Counted from the first letter of the stretch, positions 23,158 through 32,769 are shown. The stretch is DNA of 64,000 nucleotides from Rufibacter radiotolerans (GCF_001078055.1 NZ_CP010777.1:1138408-1202407); one strand, 5' to 3'. A program made the numbers and translations. The notes: generated from the sequence alone by a model not told the origin.

Positions 23158-25566
23158 ATGGCATTTATCAAATCTTTAGGGGTTGAGAACTTTAGGACTT
23201 TTAATTCAATGGTTTCTATTGAATTAGAGTCAATAAATGTATTAACAGGTGTAAATAATTCGGGTAAAAGCTCATTGTCAAAATTATTACTCTTAATTAA
23301 AGATAGTTTTGTTGATAATAAATTTTTGCAAAATTTAGATTTTGCTGGAAAATCGCATAGTCTTGGAGATTATCAAAATGCGGTTTTCGAACAGAATAGT
23401 AGTGAGGCAATATCTATATTGGTTGATTTTCCAATATTTAAAACAGATAAGTATAAGATTCACTTAAAGTATTTGCCCAAAAAAGACGTAAAATCTTATA
23501 AAGCTGAGTGTATAAGTTTAGTAGTTTTCGAAAAGAGTAGTAATGTTGAGCTGTTTTCGCTGGCAAGGAAGAGTTTTTCCAATGAAAAAGTAGACCATTA
23601 TTTCGATTCAATTCAAGATTCATTTGATTTATTTATTAATATTTCAAAATTTACTCAAGAGGTTCAATTTATTTTAAAAAAAATAAAGGAAAAAGAAGAG
23701 GAGAATGCAAATTGGTTTAAAAGAGTCTCTTCTAGTAGTATAGAGTATTTGGAAGACCCAAAGGAGCAATATGGGACAAAGTTTGAAGAATTTGATTTCA
23801 GAGTTGAGAAGCAATACGTAGATATACATTTAAGCGGTCCTCAGTATAATTTTGGCTCTAATGAAACAATGCTAAAATTGAAAACTTCAATTGAGGAGTT
23901 TTTGAATTTAAAATTAAAGGATGATATAAAATTTAGTTCAATATTTACAGGTTACGATGTTGACTCTTTATATGGTCCAGAGAGTTCATTAAAAGATTTT
24001 AATACATTAGAGAACGCAATTTATTCTTTGTCTTTTCAGAATATTCGGGTTATTAGAAAAAAGGAAGTAAAAGGTAAAGTGGTTGCTGTGCTTCTAGGTT
24101 TACTATTTACAGATGCATTTTATGTTATTAAGTCATTTTTTACTAAAAATTTAAATCATTTGCCTCTTTCAAGAGGAGAATTGAAAAGATTACATCTTGG
24201 TGATGGGAATATATTAGATAGAGTTATTACTGATTTATATTTTCATGAAAGGAACGAGGGTTTTTCCTTGCCTAAAACTTTTATTTTAGAATGGATTAGA
24301 AAATTTGGTATTGATGATTTTAATGATTACGAAATCAAGCATTTCCCAGAACATGATGTTTGTACTTTTGCCTTATTAAAAACTACTGGAAGTCCTTATA
24401 AAATTGTTAAAAGGAAAGTTTTAGCTGACTTGGGATTCGGTGTGGCCCAACTGATATTATTGCTGTCAAAAATAGCAACCCTTGCAAGACAACAGGGGCA
24501 ATATTATGGAGAATATAGGGAACTCGATTGTACTCCTCAGCTTTTAATTATTGAAGAGCCAGAATCTCATTTTCACCCCAAATGGCAATCACTACTAGCT
24601 GATATGCTAATAGACGCTTGTGATAGATTTAATATCCAGTTTATAATTGAAACACACAGTGAGTATTTTGTCAGAAGGCTCCAATATCATGTTGCTAATG
24701 AAACTGTGTCTTCTGAATGCATTCGTATTTATTATATTAATAAAAATGGACCTAACAATACATTAATAAAATATATGGAGTTAGGTTACAATGGGTCGTT
24801 TAGAGAACAATTTGAAAGTGGTTTTTTTGATGAGTTGACGACCTTATATGATGAAATAAAGGTAGTGCAGGAGATTCAAGCTTATAAAAATGAGATTGAT
24901 GAATTCAAAAAGCGTTATAATACTGATATTACTTGTATAGTGCTTACGGAGGATGCTGAGGCTGATGATAATATCAATTCAAATCTTGGTTTAGTGTTGA
25001 AATCAAATGGTTTCTGCATGGATAAAGTGAAAATTAAAACTTATCATACATCAGGTGATTTAAGACTGGCCGCTGGTATGATAAAAGCTTATGAGGATTT
25101 GGATAATGTCAAGTTAATTGTTTGGCATCTAGATGGAGATTTTGAATATACAAAGAAATTGGCCACAGTAGAAGGCCTTATTGCTAAGCAAGGGCTAACT
25201 AAAACAATGCCATTTGTAACTAAATATAACGATATTGAGGGGTACTTTATTAATGAGAAGCACATAAAGTATTTGTGTCCAACATTAAAAATATCTCTTA
25301 TAAGGTCTTTGATATTAAAAGCTCAAAATGAATTGCAAGAAAAGAGTTTGAAAATACTTATAAAGAGACTATCGGATAATGTAGAGCCGGCAGTGTTGCT
25401 ATATAATAGTAATCCTTTAATATATAGTCATACAAAAAGTATGGTTAAAAAGTTAAACAATTTAATTAATCAGCATTTGAAATTGAAGAATACTCTTGCT
25501 ATTCTTCAATACTCGCCATACTTATTAGATGATAAGCTAAAGGCTTATTCAAAAATATTAGTATGA
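23158..25566 (+). CDS. OLD/PARIS-like AAA ATPase with DUF3696-type segment and C-terminal TOPRIM-like domain
   Basis: An 802-residue protein. The SMC/RecF-type ATPase has Walker A GVNNSGKSS at residues 31-39, a family-typical DLGFGVAQLILLLSKIA block near 422, Walker B LLIIEEPESHFHP near 462, and IIETHSEYFVRRLQ near 495. GYNGSFREQFESGFFDE near 545 resembles the DUF3696 end of such ATPases. The last ~210 residues look TOPRIM/DUF4435-like: VLTEDAE near 595 (catalytic-Glu strand), IVWHLDGDFE near 655 (DxD), and NDIEGYFI near 692 (as in DUF4435 IENYL). This would be a fused sensor ATPase and nuclease, as in class 1 OLD proteins or merged PARIS AriA-AriB. The gene is far more AT-rich than its neighbours and stands alone, which suggests transfer. 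Antiphage function is inferred. Confidence 0.75.
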   Translation: MAFIKSLGVENFRTFNSMVSIELESINVLTGVNNSGKSSLSKLLLLIKDSFVDNKFLQNLDFAGKSHSLGDYQNAVFEQNSSEAISILVDFPIFKTDKYKIHLKYLPKKDVKSYKAECISLVVFEKSSNVELFSLARKSFSNEKVDHYFDSIQDSFDLFINISKFTQEVQFILKKIKEKEEENANWFKRVSSSSIEYLEDPKEQYGTKFEEFDFRVEKQYVDIHLSGPQYNFGSNETMLKLKTSIEEFLNLKLKDDIKFSSIFTGYDVDSLYGPESSLKDFNTLENAIYSLSFQNIRVIRKKEVKGKVVAVLLGLLFTDAFYVIKSFFTKNLNHLPLSRGELKRLHLGDGNILDRVITDLYFHERNEGFSLPKTFILEWIRKFGIDDFNDYEIKHFPEHDVCTFALLKTTGSPYKIVKRKVLADLGFGVAQLILLLSKIATLARQQGQYYGEYRELDCTPQLLIIEEPESHFHPKWQSLLADMLIDACDRFNIQFIIETHSEYFVRRLQYHVANETVSSECIRIYYINKNGPNNTLIKYMELGYNGSFREQFESGFFDELTTLYDEIKVVQEIQAYKNEIDEFKKRYNTDITCIVLTEDAEADDNINSNLGLVLKSNGFCMDKVKIKTYHTSGDLRLAAGMIKAYEDLDNVKLIVWHLDGDFEYTKKLATVEGLIAKQGLTKTMPFVTKYNDIEGYFINEKHIKYLCPTLKISLIRSLILKAQNELQEKSLKILIKRLSDNVEPAVLLYNSNPLIYSHTKSMVKKLNNLINQHLKLKNTLAILQYSPYLLDDKLKAYSKILV

Positions 25567-26375: not shown

Positions 26376-26429
26376 GCAAGATTTCGTTTTGGGCTTGTTT
26401 TGAATAAAACAGGCTCAAAACGATCTTGC
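26376..26429. repeat. Dispersed palindrome family, copy C
   Basis: The core ttcgttttgggcttgtttt / aaaacaggctcaaaacg is flanked by copy-specific outer arms gcaagat / atcttgc that also pair. The self-complementary span is therefore 54 nt. Confidence 0.8.
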
Positions 26430-26558: not shown

Positions 26559-28649
26559 TCAGGCATGGTCCTGTTCCGTGGGTTTCTTCTGGTTGCGCAG
26601 GTACTGGTCCTGCCCCTGTAGCCAGTCTTCGCGGCCCGGGGAGAAGAGGGTCACAAAATCAGTGTCTTCCAGTAAAATGACAGAATGGGGAACATCTGGC
26701 GGAACCAGGATAATTTCACCGGTCCGCACCACCACCTCGCGGTCATCAAAGACATATTTCAAGGTCCCCGAAAGTACCCAGGTATTTTCTTCGTTTACAT
26801 GCTGGTGGCGTTCTACTTCCGCTCCGTCTTTCCCCTGGAACCTGGCCAGGGTAGTCTTTTCCCCGAAGAGCACCTGGCGCTTAAGTAAGTCTGTCAGCTC
26901 CTCTGTGTGAACTGCCTCCCAGGAGCTTTTCTGTATCTTCTCTTTCACGTCTTTGCTGGAAGGGCCGTCCCCGCCGTAGAGTCCGGAACCCACAATATAG
27001 GTCTTGCCGTCTTTCGCCTGCACTTTTTGTACATAGGTTTGCTTAAGCGCCGGCGTATTAGAGCCGGGTTGGTACCAATAGCACTCCAGCCAAGCTCTGC
27101 CGTCGGTCATGGCCGTTGATATTTCAATTCTTACTATTTCCTTGCCTTTCAGGTCCTTCAGTTTCATCAGATTTTTTCCTTCCAGGCTGGGTTGCGCGGG
27201 GTTCACCAGTTCAACACCTTCGGGGGTCTGCACAAAAACATAGGTGTCCATGAAATAGAAGGGGCCCGTTTTATCCCGTAGCTGACCAAAGGCGTCCTGC
27301 CCCTTTTCCGCTACCAACAAGGCCGCCCGGTTCACCAGATCCTCAATCATGGCTTTGTCTAGTTGCAGGTGGTAAACGCCGCAACCAATAATGAAGGTCT
27401 GGCCAGAGGGGTAGGTGACCTGCTTAACAAACGTAGATTTCCAGGTGGGGAAGATGTAGCCTGGCTGTGGGTATTGGTAGTGGACCCACCCTTCACCGCC
27501 CGGACTGGCCCCCGCCTCCAGCATCATCTGAATCATAGGCTTGCCCAGGGCATCTTTCTGCTCCAGCACGTTTATTCCCTCGGTGGTTGGCTCTGCCGCA
27601 TGGAAAACCCGGGTCCCGTCAAAGCCTAAGACAAAGAAGTAGGTTTCGTCATTCAGCCATTTTGAGTTTTTTTCCCTGAACTGGGGGTACGCTTCTTCGC
27701 CTTGCTGCTGCAGCAAATCGGCGGCCTGCCTTACCAGATTCATTAATTCCGGAGCGGTCATGGTGGCGGCAGGCTTGGTGCCTTTAGGCGCATCTGGCAG
27801 GTAAACGCCGCAGCCCACGGCCATCGGTTTACCGTCCAAAAGGGCTTTGTGCACGTACGCCGATTTTTGGCTAGAGACACTCTCGCCGGGTTTGGGCCAC
27901 ATGTAATCTACCCAGCCCTCGCCTTTGGTGTTCACAATCTCCAGAATATCCTTAATAAGGTACTTGCCCTTGGTGTCTTTATAGTCCAGGATATTACGAC
28001 CCTCTATGGTTGGAAAAGCCGGGTTTACCAACTCATTGCCCTCCAGGTCCATCACGAAGATATAAGCGTCCTTGGCCAGGTACTGGCTTTTAGGGTCATG
28101 GAAGAGCGGGAAGGCGGCTTTCCCATGCTGCTCTATCTCGCCCACCGCGTTCAGGACCAGGTCTGCCACAAATTCGCGCTCCATGCGGTTGTCATACATG
28201 CCGCTGCCAATCACGTAGGTTTTCCCGTTGGGGGCCTTTGCCTGGTGCACGTAGCTGCTCTTCCAGCGGGGGAGGAGCTCACCCGGTTTGGGCCATTGGT
28301 AGTGGAACCAGCCCTCCGGTTTGTCTGGGTGCGCCTTGGTGGCGCCTATCAGGCCCCAGACAATGGATTTGCCGTTCAGGTCTTTTAGGTCCAGTTGGTT
28401 TTTCCCTTCCATGTCTGGCTCTGGGTGCACCAGCATGTTTCCCTCCAGGTCCAGTACAAAAACATACGTCTCGCCCTGGCGCCAGCGGCTGTCCGGTACC
28501 TTAAAATCCTTAAATGCCGCCTCGCCCACCTTCTCCACCAGGGCGACGGCGTCCTGCACCAGCCTGGTTACCTCACTTGTGTCTTTATTTTCTGGCGGGG
28601 CACTTACAAGAGAGGCTGTCTCTTTAGAATTGATTTCTAGTGTTTCCAT
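26559..28649 (-). CDS. Four tandem single-Cache domains plus C-terminal cupin, no signal peptide
   Basis: A 696-residue protein with four tandem copies of a ~135-residue sCache_2-type domain at about residues 25-160, 160-290, 300-435 and 435-562. Each repeats the order DxYVFV..xxG, a GxNxLxxKD..GK block, GWxxYxWPKPG, KxxYV and a final GxGxY. A cupin follows at about 585-680, with HQHVNEENTWVLSG (H615, H617) and PPDVPHSV (H655) as likely metal ligands. Cache domains normally sense small ligands outside the cell as part of receptors. Here there is no signal peptide, transmembrane segment, histidine kinase or chemotaxis domain, so the protein looks cytoplasmic. It is a paralogue of the next gene upstream, 58 bp away on the same strand, and probably shares its operon. 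Ligand unknown. Confidence 0.85.
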   Translation of the reverse strand: METLEINSKETASLVSAPPENKDTSEVTRLVQDAVALVEKVGEAAFKDFKVPDSRWRQGETYVFVLDLEGNMLVHPEPDMEGKNQLDLKDLNGKSIVWGLIGATKAHPDKPEGWFHYQWPKPGELLPRWKSSYVHQAKAPNGKTYVIGSGMYDNRMEREFVADLVLNAVGEIEQHGKAAFPLFHDPKSQYLAKDAYIFVMDLEGNELVNPAFPTIEGRNILDYKDTKGKYLIKDILEIVNTKGEGWVDYMWPKPGESVSSQKSAYVHKALLDGKPMAVGCGVYLPDAPKGTKPAATMTAPELMNLVRQAADLLQQQGEEAYPQFREKNSKWLNDETYFFVLGFDGTRVFHAAEPTTEGINVLEQKDALGKPMIQMMLEAGASPGGEGWVHYQYPQPGYIFPTWKSTFVKQVTYPSGQTFIIGCGVYHLQLDKAMIEDLVNRAALLVAEKGQDAFGQLRDKTGPFYFMDTYVFVQTPEGVELVNPAQPSLEGKNLMKLKDLKGKEIVRIEISTAMTDGRAWLECYWYQPGSNTPALKQTYVQKVQAKDGKTYIVGSGLYGGDGPSSKDVKEKIQKSSWEAVHTEELTDLLKRQVLFGEKTTLARFQGKDGAEVERHQHVNEENTWVLSGTLKYVFDDREVVVRTGEIILVPPDVPHSVILLEDTDFVTLFSPGREDWLQGQDQYLRNQKKPTEQDHA

Positions 28650-28707
28650 GGGTAAAGGAAGTTTGGGTATGAAGGAATTTTAAGGTCTCCTGAACAAGAA
28701 GACCGTG

Positions 28708-30552
28708 CTATTTCTTTTGCTTACTGCTTTTCCCCTTGGGCACGTTAAGGGCTTCTGTCGCGTCCTGGGTAGGGTAGAAGCCAGCCCCTACAATGTAGGT
28801 GTCGGGGCCGTGGGTTACTTTTCTAACGTAGGTGAGTTTTTTGCTTTGCGTGTTTTCGTTGGGCTTGTACCAATAGTATTCCACCCAGGCGCTGTCTTTC
28901 TGCATTACGGCGGTAATGTAGTCGCGCACCGAGTAATTTCCTTTCAGGTCTTTGGTGTTCCAGAGGTTGGTGCCTTCCAGGCTGGGCTGGGCGCCGTTGA
29001 CCAGTTCATCGCCTGTCGGCGATTCCACAAACACGTAGGTGTCCATGAACACGTAGCGGCCAGTCTTGTCACGCAGCGCCGGGAAGGCTTCTTTGCCTTT
29101 GGAAGCCACCAGGGCGGCGGCCCGGTCCACAAGGTCCTTGATCAGGGTCTGGTCCATCTGCATGTGGTAGATGCCGCTGCCAATGATGTATGGCTGGCCG
29201 TTAGGGAACGTGACCCGTTTAACGAACACAGATTTCCAGGCCGGGAAAATATCGCCGGGCTCTGGGTACATGTAGTGCAGCCAGCCTTCGCCGGCGGGGC
29301 TGTTTCCTTCTTCCAGAATCCTTTTGCCATAGGGCCGGCCTAGCACGTCTCTGGCGCCTGCCGCATTGCTGCCGGCCAGCTTAGGATCAGCGGCATGGAA
29401 AGCCCGCCTTCCTTTCAGGTCCCAGACAATAAAGTAGGTGTTGTCTTTATACCATTTTGAGCCTTTACGCTTGAACTCGAGGTAGGCGTCTTCGCCTTTC
29501 TTTTCAAAGACCGTGGCGGCCTCGCGGACCAGGGCCATAAGTTCTGGGGCGGTCATGGCGCGGACGGCAGTGGTAGGCCTGGGGGCGTCTGCCAGGTAAA
29601 CGCCGCAGCCCACGGCCACCGGTTTGCCGTCCAGCATAACTTTCTGCACGTACGCTGATTTGGGTGCCGGAACGTTCTCGCCGGGTTTAGGCCACTGGTA
29701 ATCTACCCAGCCCGAGTCTTTGGTCTGCACCGTTTTCAGGATCTCCTTGGTGAGGTACTTGCCGGTGGGGTCCTTCACGTTTAAAATGTTGCGCCCTTCC
29801 AGGTTGGGGAAAGCCGGGTTCACTAACTCTATCCCTTCCATGGTGAGCACAAAAATGTAGGCATTTTTCACCAGGAACGGGCCCGCCGGGTCATGGAAGG
29901 CCTTAAAGGCGCCTTTGCCCTTTTGCTGGATCTCCATGACCGCGTCTTTGACCATGTCTACCACAAACGCGCGCTCCATGCGGTCATCATACAAACCACT
30001 GCCTACCACGTAACTCTTGCCCGACGGGGCTTTTACCTGGCGCACGTAACTGCTTTTCCAGCGCGGAAGGAGCCCCCCCGGAACCGGCCACTGGTAATGG
30101 AACCAGCCTTCGGGTTTGTTGGGGTGTTCTGTAGCGGCCGTCAGGAGGCCCTGAATGATGGGTTTGCCTTTCAGGTCTTTGAGGTTTATCTGGTTTTTGC
30201 CCACCATGGTGGAATCTGCGTGCACCAGCATGTTGCCCTGTGGGTCCAGCACAAAAACATAGGTCTGGCCTTTCCGCCAGCGGCTGCCGGGTACCTTGAA
30301 CTCCTGGAAGGCCGCCTCGCCCTTCTGCTGGATAAGCCCGCCCGCGTCTTTTACCAGAGCGGTAATTAGGGCAATAGAGTCCTGGGTTTGGGTGCCGGAA
30401 ATTTGGCCAGGAGGCCGAAGATTCTGATCCGAAGCCTGGGCAGAAGGGTGTAGGGTCCACAAGGCATTACCGGGACGGGCGGGCCCCAACACCAACCAGC
30501 CAGCCAGAAGAACAGCCGCGGCGATGACAAGCAAGAGAGATGCTTTTTTCAT
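28708..30552 (-). CDS. Four tandem single-Cache domains, N-terminally anchored or secreted
   Basis: A 614-residue paralogue of the Cache-cupin protein. The N-terminus MKKASLLLVIAAAVLLAGWLVLG is a signal peptide or membrane anchor, placing the four Cache domains (about residues 60-190, 190-325, 330-465 and 465-590) in the periplasm. The repeats keep the same order, for example YVFVLDPQGNMLVH, GWFHYQWPVPG and KSYVVGSGLY. Each domain matches its counterpart in the neighbour (domain 1 to domain 1, and so on) better than the other domains, so the whole four-domain array was duplicated. It lacks the cupin and ends in a basic KGKSSKQKK tail. No output domain is present. It is the first gene of the pair. 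Confidence 0.85.
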   Translation of the reverse strand: MKKASLLLVIAAAVLLAGWLVLGPARPGNALWTLHPSAQASDQNLRPPGQISGTQTQDSIALITALVKDAGGLIQQKGEAAFQEFKVPGSRWRKGQTYVFVLDPQGNMLVHADSTMVGKNQINLKDLKGKPIIQGLLTAATEHPNKPEGWFHYQWPVPGGLLPRWKSSYVRQVKAPSGKSYVVGSGLYDDRMERAFVVDMVKDAVMEIQQKGKGAFKAFHDPAGPFLVKNAYIFVLTMEGIELVNPAFPNLEGRNILNVKDPTGKYLTKEILKTVQTKDSGWVDYQWPKPGENVPAPKSAYVQKVMLDGKPVAVGCGVYLADAPRPTTAVRAMTAPELMALVREAATVFEKKGEDAYLEFKRKGSKWYKDNTYFIVWDLKGRRAFHAADPKLAGSNAAGARDVLGRPYGKRILEEGNSPAGEGWLHYMYPEPGDIFPAWKSVFVKRVTFPNGQPYIIGSGIYHMQMDQTLIKDLVDRAAALVASKGKEAFPALRDKTGRYVFMDTYVFVESPTGDELVNGAQPSLEGTNLWNTKDLKGNYSVRDYITAVMQKDSAWVEYYWYKPNENTQSKKLTYVRKVTHGPDTYIVGAGFYPTQDATEALNVPKGKSSKQKK

Positions 30553-31026
30553 AGGTAGAGGTAGAGTTAGGAAAGGAATGAGCAGGCTAGTTGGTCATGG
30601 GCCGGAGCCACGGAAGCTAGGTTCTCCAAGGGCAGGGGTACTGCCGGTCAGGGGTCTTTTGCTCAGGAGAAAAACCTTTGCGCCGGTTCTGCTTCTGTAG
30701 CCCAGGTGGATCACATGTGGGGGAGCAAATACCCGGGGATTTGGTATCTGTGGGGATAGTATTTTTTACGACGAGGTGCCCTGTTGGTTGTTAGGGCACT
30801 TAGGTAGAATCAGCAGCAGGCACCTTTGGCCATGGCAAGCGCGTCCGTGCTTTGGTTTTTCTTTTGAATTCAGGGGCCGGCTATCTGGGCAAGGTTGGTT
30901 CTCCTGAAATCACTACTTGTGGCTATTGAAACCCGGTAAACGCAGAACTCCCGTTTTGAGCCTGTTTTCTGTAAAACAGGCCCAAAACGGGAGTTCTTTC
31001 TAAAGACTTTTCTAAACGACTTCTCC
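30553..31026. other. Intergenic region with palindrome copy D
   Basis: A 474-bp gap between two minus-strand genes. It holds the promoter region of the Cache pair and palindrome copy D (30944-30997), which sits 26 bp beyond the end of the SHOCT-like gene. No coding frame is convincing. Confidence 0.5.
30944..30997. repeat. Dispersed palindrome family, copy D
   Basis: The core cccgttttgagcctgttttc / aaaacaggcccaaaacggg has copy-specific outer arms agaactc / gagttct. Almost the whole 54 nt is self-complementary. It is positioned as a terminator for the minus-strand gene 31027-31614. Confidence 0.85.
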
Positions 31027-31614
31027 TTACGACAGCAGGTCTTTGATCTGCAGCTGCATCCAGAGTTCCTCGTGTTCTTCCTGGCTCAGGATACCCATTT
31101 CGCGCAGCCACCCGAACCGCTCAATCAGCACTTCCTGGGGCAGGTGTTGTTCTACCACGCCATATTTGTTTTTATAGTAGGCCTGAATGTGGGCATGAAT
31201 AGACAAGATAAAGTTATCTACCTCCATGTTGGAAGGGCTCCCGCGGAACAGTTCCAGCGTTTTGGCCCCGCCGGTGAGCAGGACAAGGTCGCGGTTGGTA
31301 TGAGAGAAGGCCAGCGCCGCCAGCACCATAGACACCAGGGTGGCGCTAATCCAGAGCAAGGCAACCGGACCCGCGCCCTCGTGCAGGAATGAAACCACAA
31401 AGGAATACAGACTGATGCCGGAGAAAAGGCTGAGCAGGCATGCCGGCAGGAGCGCGGCTTTCTCGCGTTTCTTCACCAGTTCAAAGCCCATGTCTTCGTA
31501 CCGAATGCGGTACTCCATGTTTTCTTTCCAGTTCGTGGTAATGACCCTGATCCCAGATTTCCTCAAGGTGAATTCTTTGCTGCTGAATAGGTGGCGCTGC
31601 TTTAGCTCTTTCAT
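31027..31614 (-). CDS. Membrane protein with SHOCT-like C-terminus
   Basis: A 195-residue protein of unknown function. Two hydrophobic segments lie near residues 57-75 and 85-105 (LLPACLLSLFSGISLYSFVV and the LLWISATLVSMVLAALAF stretch). The C-terminal RFGWLREMGILSQEEHEELW resembles the SHOCT motif, a short domain seen at the ends of many membrane proteins and thought to mediate oligomerisation. The frame opens to 31695, but residues before the ATG at 31614 (MKELKQRHLF) do not look conserved. The region around residues 20-45 may be a PH-like strand set. No operon partner is clear. Confidence 0.65.
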   Translation of the reverse strand: MKELKQRHLFSSKEFTLRKSGIRVITTNWKENMEYRIRYEDMGFELVKKREKAALLPACLLSLFSGISLYSFVVSFLHEGAGPVALLWISATLVSMVLAALAFSHTNRDLVLLTGGAKTLELFRGSPSNMEVDNFILSIHAHIQAYYKNKYGVVEQHLPQEVLIERFGWLREMGILSQEEHEELWMQLQIKDLLS

Positions 31615-31847
31615 TATTCTTAGATGGATAACGTAACCAGATATATGCTTTTGCTGAATTGTGCAAAAAGGTAAGAAGAAAAATGTAGCAAGCAAGCGTT
31701 TGAAGCTAATATTTGTAATTTTCTTTCACGTTATAATTAAAAATATGGTTTTTCATATTTAACCATAGGATTGGAGAAAGAGTAGGACTTCTGGGGGAAT
31801 GGGTGCGGGTAGGGAGGGGTGGTTTTTGGGCAGGGGGATTAGGGATA

Positions 31848-32223: not shown

Positions 32224-32769
32224 TTACTGCACCAAAATAATTTCCAGCAGGCCTTGTTCGCCCGCATAGTCACGGGCAGAACTGTAGAGATAATGTTCAG
32301 GTTCACTCACAATTTCTGCCCGGACCGGGTTTTGGTGAATGTATTCCAGTTTTTGGTCCAAAAAAGCATTGGAGTGAATTTCCTTGGCTTCATTGCCTTC
32401 TTGCCAGAATTTGTATTGCATAATTTTCGGGTCTTGCGCTCCTCTGAATGTGAATCTACTCAACCACCTTTCCTTTCTGCGTTCATTTTTCTCTTGAATA
32501 GCTTTGATAAGGGCTTTGCTTGTAAACTTCTTGAAGTCTCTTAAAATATGGGATAGGTTTTGCCCTTCTTTAGCGCTTGCTATTAAATGAAGGTGGTTGG
32601 TCATTAAACACCAGGCATATACTTCTAGTCCCTTCTCCTGTTGGCAGTACCTAAGGGCATCTACTAACAGGTGCTTGTACACCGGTCTTGTGAAAACATC
32701 TATCCAGTCCACTACAGTAAGCGTCAGGTAATACAAATACCCTTCCTGGATTTTATTCTTGATGCCCAT
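32224..32769 (-). CDS. REP-associated tyrosine transposase (RAYT, Y1_Tnp family)
   Basis: A 181-residue Y1 HUH-type transposase. The HUH motif is in CLMTNHLHLIA (H59, H61), and the likely catalytic tyrosine is Y143 in KLEYIHQNPVRAEIV. The C-terminal YLYSSARDY is the usual RAYT ending. RAYTs are single-copy domesticated relatives of IS200/IS605 TnpA that act on REP hairpins, which here lie on both sides of the gene (R1-R3 downstream, R4-R5 upstream). The length is normal and the frame is intact, so the protein may be active. It lies divergent to uvrA. Confidence 0.9.
   Translation of the reverse strand: MGIKNKIQEGYLYYLTLTVVDWIDVFTRPVYKHLLVDALRYCQQEKGLEVYAWCLMTNHLHLIASAKEGQNLSHILRDFKKFTSKALIKAIQEKNERRKERWLSRFTFRGAQDPKIMQYKFWQEGNEAKEIHSNAFLDQKLEYIHQNPVRAEIVSEPEHYLYSSARDYAGEQGLLEIILVQ

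Follow-up and report, generated by a model that had tools for sequence, protein, structure and literature searches.

The window examined here is a stretch of 64,000 nucleotides from Rufibacter radiotolerans (NZ_CP010777.1:1138408-1202407). Two adjacent genes in it encode proteins with the same array of four sCache_2-type domains and no output domain. The first gene product, P0002, is predicted to be exported. The second, P0001, lacks a signal peptide and is predicted to remain in the cytoplasm; a cupin with a putative metal site forms its C-terminus. We tentatively read them as a carboxylate-binding pair without output that works in two compartments, with an exported binder and a cytoplasmic binder-cupin; this is plausible, if slightly less than evenly probable. 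The arrangement itself is real and conserved, but rare.

In bacteria, the Cache domain is considered the standard module for sensing outside the cytoplasm, and it almost always controls an output domain of the protein that carries it. If true, two conserved partner proteins that each have four Cache domains and lack an output, the predicted cytoplasmic one being fused to a metal cupin, would widen both the places where Cache domains work and the partners to which they couple. The computed evidence comprises domain content, fold, pocket positions, the cupin metal site, the repeated occurrence of the pair and, in relatives, gene conversion of the first domain.

Domain arrays, recurrence and predicted location

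Pfam detected sCache_2 (PF17200) in four stretches of each protein, with 213.8 and 228.5 bits at a cut-off of 25 (E-values of 1.5e-63 for P0001 and 4.4e-68 for P0002). The two arrays match domain by domain and share 61% identity across 532 residues. Within the array, domains 3-4 align onto domains 1-2 at 42%, which marks it as a doubled two-domain unit, A1-B1-A2-B2, as judged from this alignment. AlphaFold2 models contained the Cache fold in all four domains of each protein (mean predicted local distance difference test, pLDDT, 80.2 and 80.9). The best structural matches of the P0002 model are carboxylate-binding sCache_2 domains: 4k08 (Z 19.0, root-mean-square deviation 2.9, 129 aligned), 5g4y (Z 18.2), 2qhk (17.9) and 4exo (17.0). 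Foldseek retrieved the same sCache_2 domains with the P0001 model, and CelOCE and BeKdgF with its cupin. Pfam and NCBIfam gave no kinase, GGDEF, chemotaxis or other output domain in either protein. An initial annotation of this DNA had described two adjacent genes at 26559-30552, the shared four-Cache array, an N-terminal membrane or signal segment in one protein only, a terminal cupin with a His-x-His site in the other and the absence of an output domain. All of this was borne out, including coordinates and strand (both minus) and the cupin (Cupin_2 at P0001 residues 609-668, E 1.6e-12; His615/His617). Within the short gap between the genes no terminator-like site was found, which is consistent with a single transcript for P0002 and P0001.

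Relatives were sought in 203 other genomes of the family, in two samples of about 400 genomes each, one from the class and one from the phylum, and in an order sample. Besides the window genome, six of the 203 family genomes encode a full-length array; these six belong to a single further genus, and the 15 congeners of the window genome lack such an array. A lone exported array is present in G648, from a different family of the same class, and no other full-length array was found in the class and phylum samples. The order sample contained partial array matches only, and an additional class sample, largely overlapping the earlier one, added no new members. The window order, an exported array followed by a signal-less array with cupin, is kept in G1176, G1168 and G1194. 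The search for the two-gene pair elsewhere, suggested in the initial annotation, thus found it intact in three species of a second genus and frameshifted in a fourth, G1195. There the signal-less gene (locus L100, 7098-9157) is frameshifted near the end of domain B1, by decay or sequencing error, and its exported neighbour is intact. G1206 has two exported arrays and, 15 bases on, a separate signal-less cupin of 119 amino acids, which fits a cytoplasmic cupin. Exported arrays without a partner are also encoded by G1209, and G1168 and G1194 have such arrays in addition to their pairs. A viral origin was rejected, with no relative among viral contigs, as was a plasmid origin: plasmid matches were partial, below 60% identity, and none covered 80% of the array.

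The ratio of nonsynonymous to synonymous substitution rates (dN/dS) was 0.04-0.18 over the measured segments, with 0.06 for A2 of two signal-less copies. Such low values argue that these segments are functional. A decaying or accidental fusion without function, suggested by the rare, patchy distribution and the frameshift in G1195, is very unlikely in view of four intact species in two genera, the low dN/dS and an invariant cupin metal site.

P0002 starts with a hydrophobic segment (residues 5-22), and AQA-S provides a possible cleavage site near residue 40. Hydropathy, measured as the maximum 15-residue value within the first 60 residues, was 2.0-2.8 in 11 of 11 exported arrays (P0002 2.8) and did not exceed 0.91 in any signal-less member, including the stand-alone cupin of G1206. 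An in-frame TAA 30 bases 5' of the ATG closes the P0001 frame upstream and rules out a signal peptide missed by a late start. From hydropathy and the closed frame we infer that P0002 is exported and P0001 cytoplasmic. Export of P0001 by a route without a classical signal would place both proteins outside the cytoplasm and abolish the second compartment. This would suit the normally extracytoplasmic location of Cache domains and the likeness of the two arrays. It is quite improbable: every exported copy has a hydrophobic N-terminus, no intact signal-less copy in the two genera has one, and the separate cupin of G1206 is signal-less although the arrays beside it have signals.

Ligand pockets, cupin and proposed function

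PscD contacts propionate with Tyr90, His103, Tyr143 and Lys156 and holds the acid in an aromatic sandwich of Trp92 and Trp145 (PMC5062169). Histidine at the position of His103 is typical of pyruvate/acetate-type domains, and leucine of the lactate type (PMC12415202). Six positions aligned to the PscD contacts were compared in 15 arrays, by residue position only. The A1 pocket reads Y-F-H-Y-W-K in 15 of 15 arrays, identical in exported and signal-less copies, with phenylalanine in place of PscD Trp92. The B1 pocket is Y-F-N-Y-W-K in 14 arrays and has tyrosine for phenylalanine in one; asparagine replaces the histidine in all. The A2 and B2 pockets vary among arrays. Since its contact positions are kept in all arrays and the histidine is present, A1 is the strongest candidate for binding a C2/C3 acid in both proteins. 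Signal-less copies show partial decay of their A2 and B2 pockets, which confines the idea of the same array with the same ligand to A1 and perhaps B1 at most. In a comparison across all eight Cache domains, as proposed in the initial annotation, A1 and B1 positions are kept in both proteins, and P0001 B2 has lost its Tyr143 equivalent.

A phylogenetic tree of 60 domains from the 15 arrays placed A1, A2 and B2 each in one group; B1 needs one extra change. By this grouping the four-domain array is older than all these duplications, in agreement with the earlier proposal that it preceded the gene duplication. Between neighbouring copies in G1194, G1206 and G1168, DNA identity is 87-93% for A1 versus 64-69% for B1, A2 and B2 (93% versus 65-69% in G1194). 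Homogenisation of A1 was significant at fourfold sites (Fisher p 2e-8 in G1194, 5e-10 in G1206 and 0.02 in G1168). Trees in which the four signal-less copies were forced together were rejected with A1 (p 2e-5) and with B1 (p 0.03) but not with A2 or B2, a pattern that recombination among domains would produce. A common origin of the signal-less copies is thus not readable from the arrays.

The metal-binding residues of BeKdgF, His50, His52, Glu56 and His90, correspond to His615, His617, Glu620/621 and His655 of the P0001 cupin. The set His, His, Glu, His is kept in 6 of 6 Cache-linked cupins, which form one clade (98/98) separate from 23 stand-alone cupins. BeKdgF (7zyb, 7zyc) is among the best matches of the P0001 cupin by sequence (E 6e-10) and fold, as is CelOCE (9bwf). 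The equivalent of Arg108 is Arg673, and that of Phe104 is also kept. The catalytic residue of BeKdgF is Asp102 (PMC11381880). Its equivalent is Thr667 in the window, valine in two relatives and aspartate in 3 of 6 Cache-linked cupins. For this reason the P0001 cupin is not classed as KdgF. A KdgF-type enzyme opening 4,5-unsaturated uronates, with Cache arrays binding uronate breakdown products, would explain the matches, the metal ligands and the kept arginine and phenylalanine. It is most improbable given the incomplete conservation of the catalytic aspartate; moreover, among the neighbours of the pair no uronate gene was observed, and its Cache pockets are similar to pockets that take C2/C3 acids.

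From these results we infer shared ligand use and a task for the cupin as follows. P0002 would bind a small carboxylate of the acetate, propionate or pyruvate class after export, mainly via A1 and probably B1, and its array would capture or concentrate the acid in the periplasm. P0001, as the cytoplasmic sister keeping the A1 and B1 pockets, would hold the same or a closely related acid beside its cupin. The cupin may act on the acid or report its presence. The initial annotation had likewise imagined a periplasmic sensor or buffer and a cytoplasmic version with a cupin. The recurrence of the arrangement and the identical A1 pockets speak for this proposal; the unconserved KdgF catalytic base and the partial decay of A2 and B2 in signal-less copies do not.

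Several observations weigh against a two-compartment carboxylate-binding pair. The Tyr143 equivalent of B2 is lost in 4 of 4 intact signal-less copies and also in two exported arrays (G1206_S1 and G648), and that of A2 in 3 of 4 intact signal-less copies, those of the three relatives. The A1 sandwich residue is phenylalanine and not the tryptophan of PscD, a difference softened by 4EXO, which likewise has phenylalanine at the Trp92 position (PMC12415202). Homogenisation of A1 is not general, because no conversion signal was present in the window pair (p 0.86) or in G1176 (p 0.26), and it may reflect no more than gene conversion of tandem neighbours. The compartments are assigned by hydropathy alone. 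No transporter, regulator or enzyme is a conserved neighbour of the pair in the compared loci; gene neighbourhood was discarded as a functional clue, with nothing conserved beyond the pair itself.

Separate functions after duplication are a serious but rather doubtful alternative. P0002 would serve a membrane receptor or transporter encoded elsewhere, as its co-sensor or periplasmic binding protein; the P0001 array would share no ligand with P0002 and would have been reused to scaffold or oligomerise a cupin enzyme. The lost Tyr143 equivalents in B2 and A2 of signal-less copies would be explained, as would the identity of only 54-65% for B1, A2 and B2 between the two copies in one genome and the occurrence of exported arrays without a partner (G648, G1209 and the additional copies). 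That an exported Cache unit can pair with a transporter is indicated by a two-Cache lipoprotein gene that precedes a PF00860 permease gene by no more than 50 bases in 7 of 7 loci from genomes that we take to be Chlorobiaceae-like. A mere scaffold does not need the intact A1 and B1 pockets of the signal-less copies, however, and A1 was kept alike in three species. The carboxylate-binding pair may be extended to a two-compartment metabolite-sensing pair, which we consider unlikely. The same array would sense outside and inside, the inner copy would read out via its metal cupin and not via a kinase, cyclase or chemotaxis domain, and gene conversion would keep A1 alike in some species so that both proteins recognise the same acid.

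Genomic surroundings of the pair

In G237, a congener with a complete genome, the genes orthologous to those that flank the pair adjoin, with no pair between them (97% identity for the TMEM175-like gene, 42% for the gene at 31027-31695). A palindrome resembling repetitive extragenic palindromic (REP) elements lies on each side of the pair, and the short gap in G237 contains one similar palindrome. This fits gain or loss of the pair via recombination at REP-like repeats, in either direction. The palindrome arm CGTTTTGRGCCTGTTTT is present 10 times in the window (chance 0), six of them outside the two bracketing copies. Genome-wide, it has 862 matches with at most one mismatch versus 0 for the reversed control.

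REP-associated transposases belong to the Y1_Tnp family. A Y1_Tnp (PF01797) transposase-like gene is located at 32224-32769 (minus strand) of the window, and a relative lies near the pair in G1168 (L097, 3213-3758). A low-GC AAA_15/AAA_21 ATPase gene (23158-25566, plus strand) is located between HGSNAT-like and TMEM175-like genes. At its place, G237 has a different gene whose start resembles an ATP-binding protein.

Table 1. Features of the gene pair and its borders, in window coordinates
Feature	Position	Strand	Size or residues	Remarks
P0002, exported four-Cache protein	28708..30552	-	614 aa	first gene of pair
P0002 signal peptide or membrane anchor, N-terminal	30433..30552	-	1-40	predicted from sequence and hydropathy
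P0002 Cache A1	29974..30366	-	63-193	pocket Y-F-H-Y-W-K
P0002 Cache B1	29575..29973	-	194-326	pocket Y-F-N-Y-W-K
P0002 Cache A2	29149..29541	-	338-468	pocket Y-I-H-Y-Y-K
P0002 Cache B2	28762..29148	-	469-597	pocket Y-F-N-Y-W-K
Intergenic gap P0002/P0001	28650..28707	-	58 bases	
P0001, signal-less four-Cache and cupin protein	26559..28649	-	696 aa	second gene of pair
P0001 Cache A1	28179..28571	-	27-157	pocket Y62 F64 H75 Y117 W119 K130
P0001 Cache B1	27780..28178	-	158-290	pocket Y196 F198 N209 Y249 W251 K262
P0001 Cache A2	27354..27746	-	302-432	pocket Y337 F339 H350 Y391 Y393 K404
P0001 Cache B2	26964..27353	-	433-562	pocket Y470 F472 N483 C523 W525 K536; Tyr143 equivalent lost
P0001 cupin	26595..26927	-	575-685	likely metal ligands His615, His617, Glu621 (or Glu620), His655
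REP-like palindrome downstream of pair	26385..26422			
REP-like palindrome upstream of pair	30952..30989			

Relation to known Cache and cupin proteins

Cache proteins without output were already known; as far as we found, the paired arrangement is new, rare and apparently unstudied. The literature searched contained no published Cache-cupin fusion. Titles and abstracts on cytoplasmic or on four or tandem Cache domains gave no bacterial counterpart and mainly concerned calcium channels and cachexia.

The sCache_2 domains of PscD, Adeh_3718 and V. parahaemolyticus 4EXO share their fold with the arrays (Z 17-19) and their carboxylate contact positions with A1. They are single domains in membrane receptors with output, chemoreceptors or kinases, whereas here four domains stand in tandem without output and one copy is signal-less. 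Stand-alone Cache domains are unusual, as more than 90% of Cache domains are fused to signalling modules (preprint, PMC12889525). The sCache_heme proteins are likewise stand-alone and output-less (PMC12889525), but carry a CXXCH heme motif that is absent from the P0001 and P0002 sequences. Stand-alone exported Cache proteins are common in Desulfobacterota; in most of 22 loci they combine a signal peptide and a Cache domain without output and have the pocket Y-F-H-Y-W-K by inspection. Unlike the pair, they have one domain, no cupin and no signal-less partner that was seen. The Chlorobiaceae-like lipoprotein is an output-less A-B unit with about 30% identity over 265 residues. It differs by having two domains, a second pocket decayed by inspection, the PF00860 permease as partner and no cupin. 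Two or three PF00860-type permease genes surround the lipoprotein gene in L080 and L104. For the cupin, KdgF and CelOCE share the fold of P0001, and KdgF also its metal ligands. KdgF has a catalytic aspartate that is not kept in the window cupin, and the P0001 cupin is distinguished by its fusion to Cache domains.

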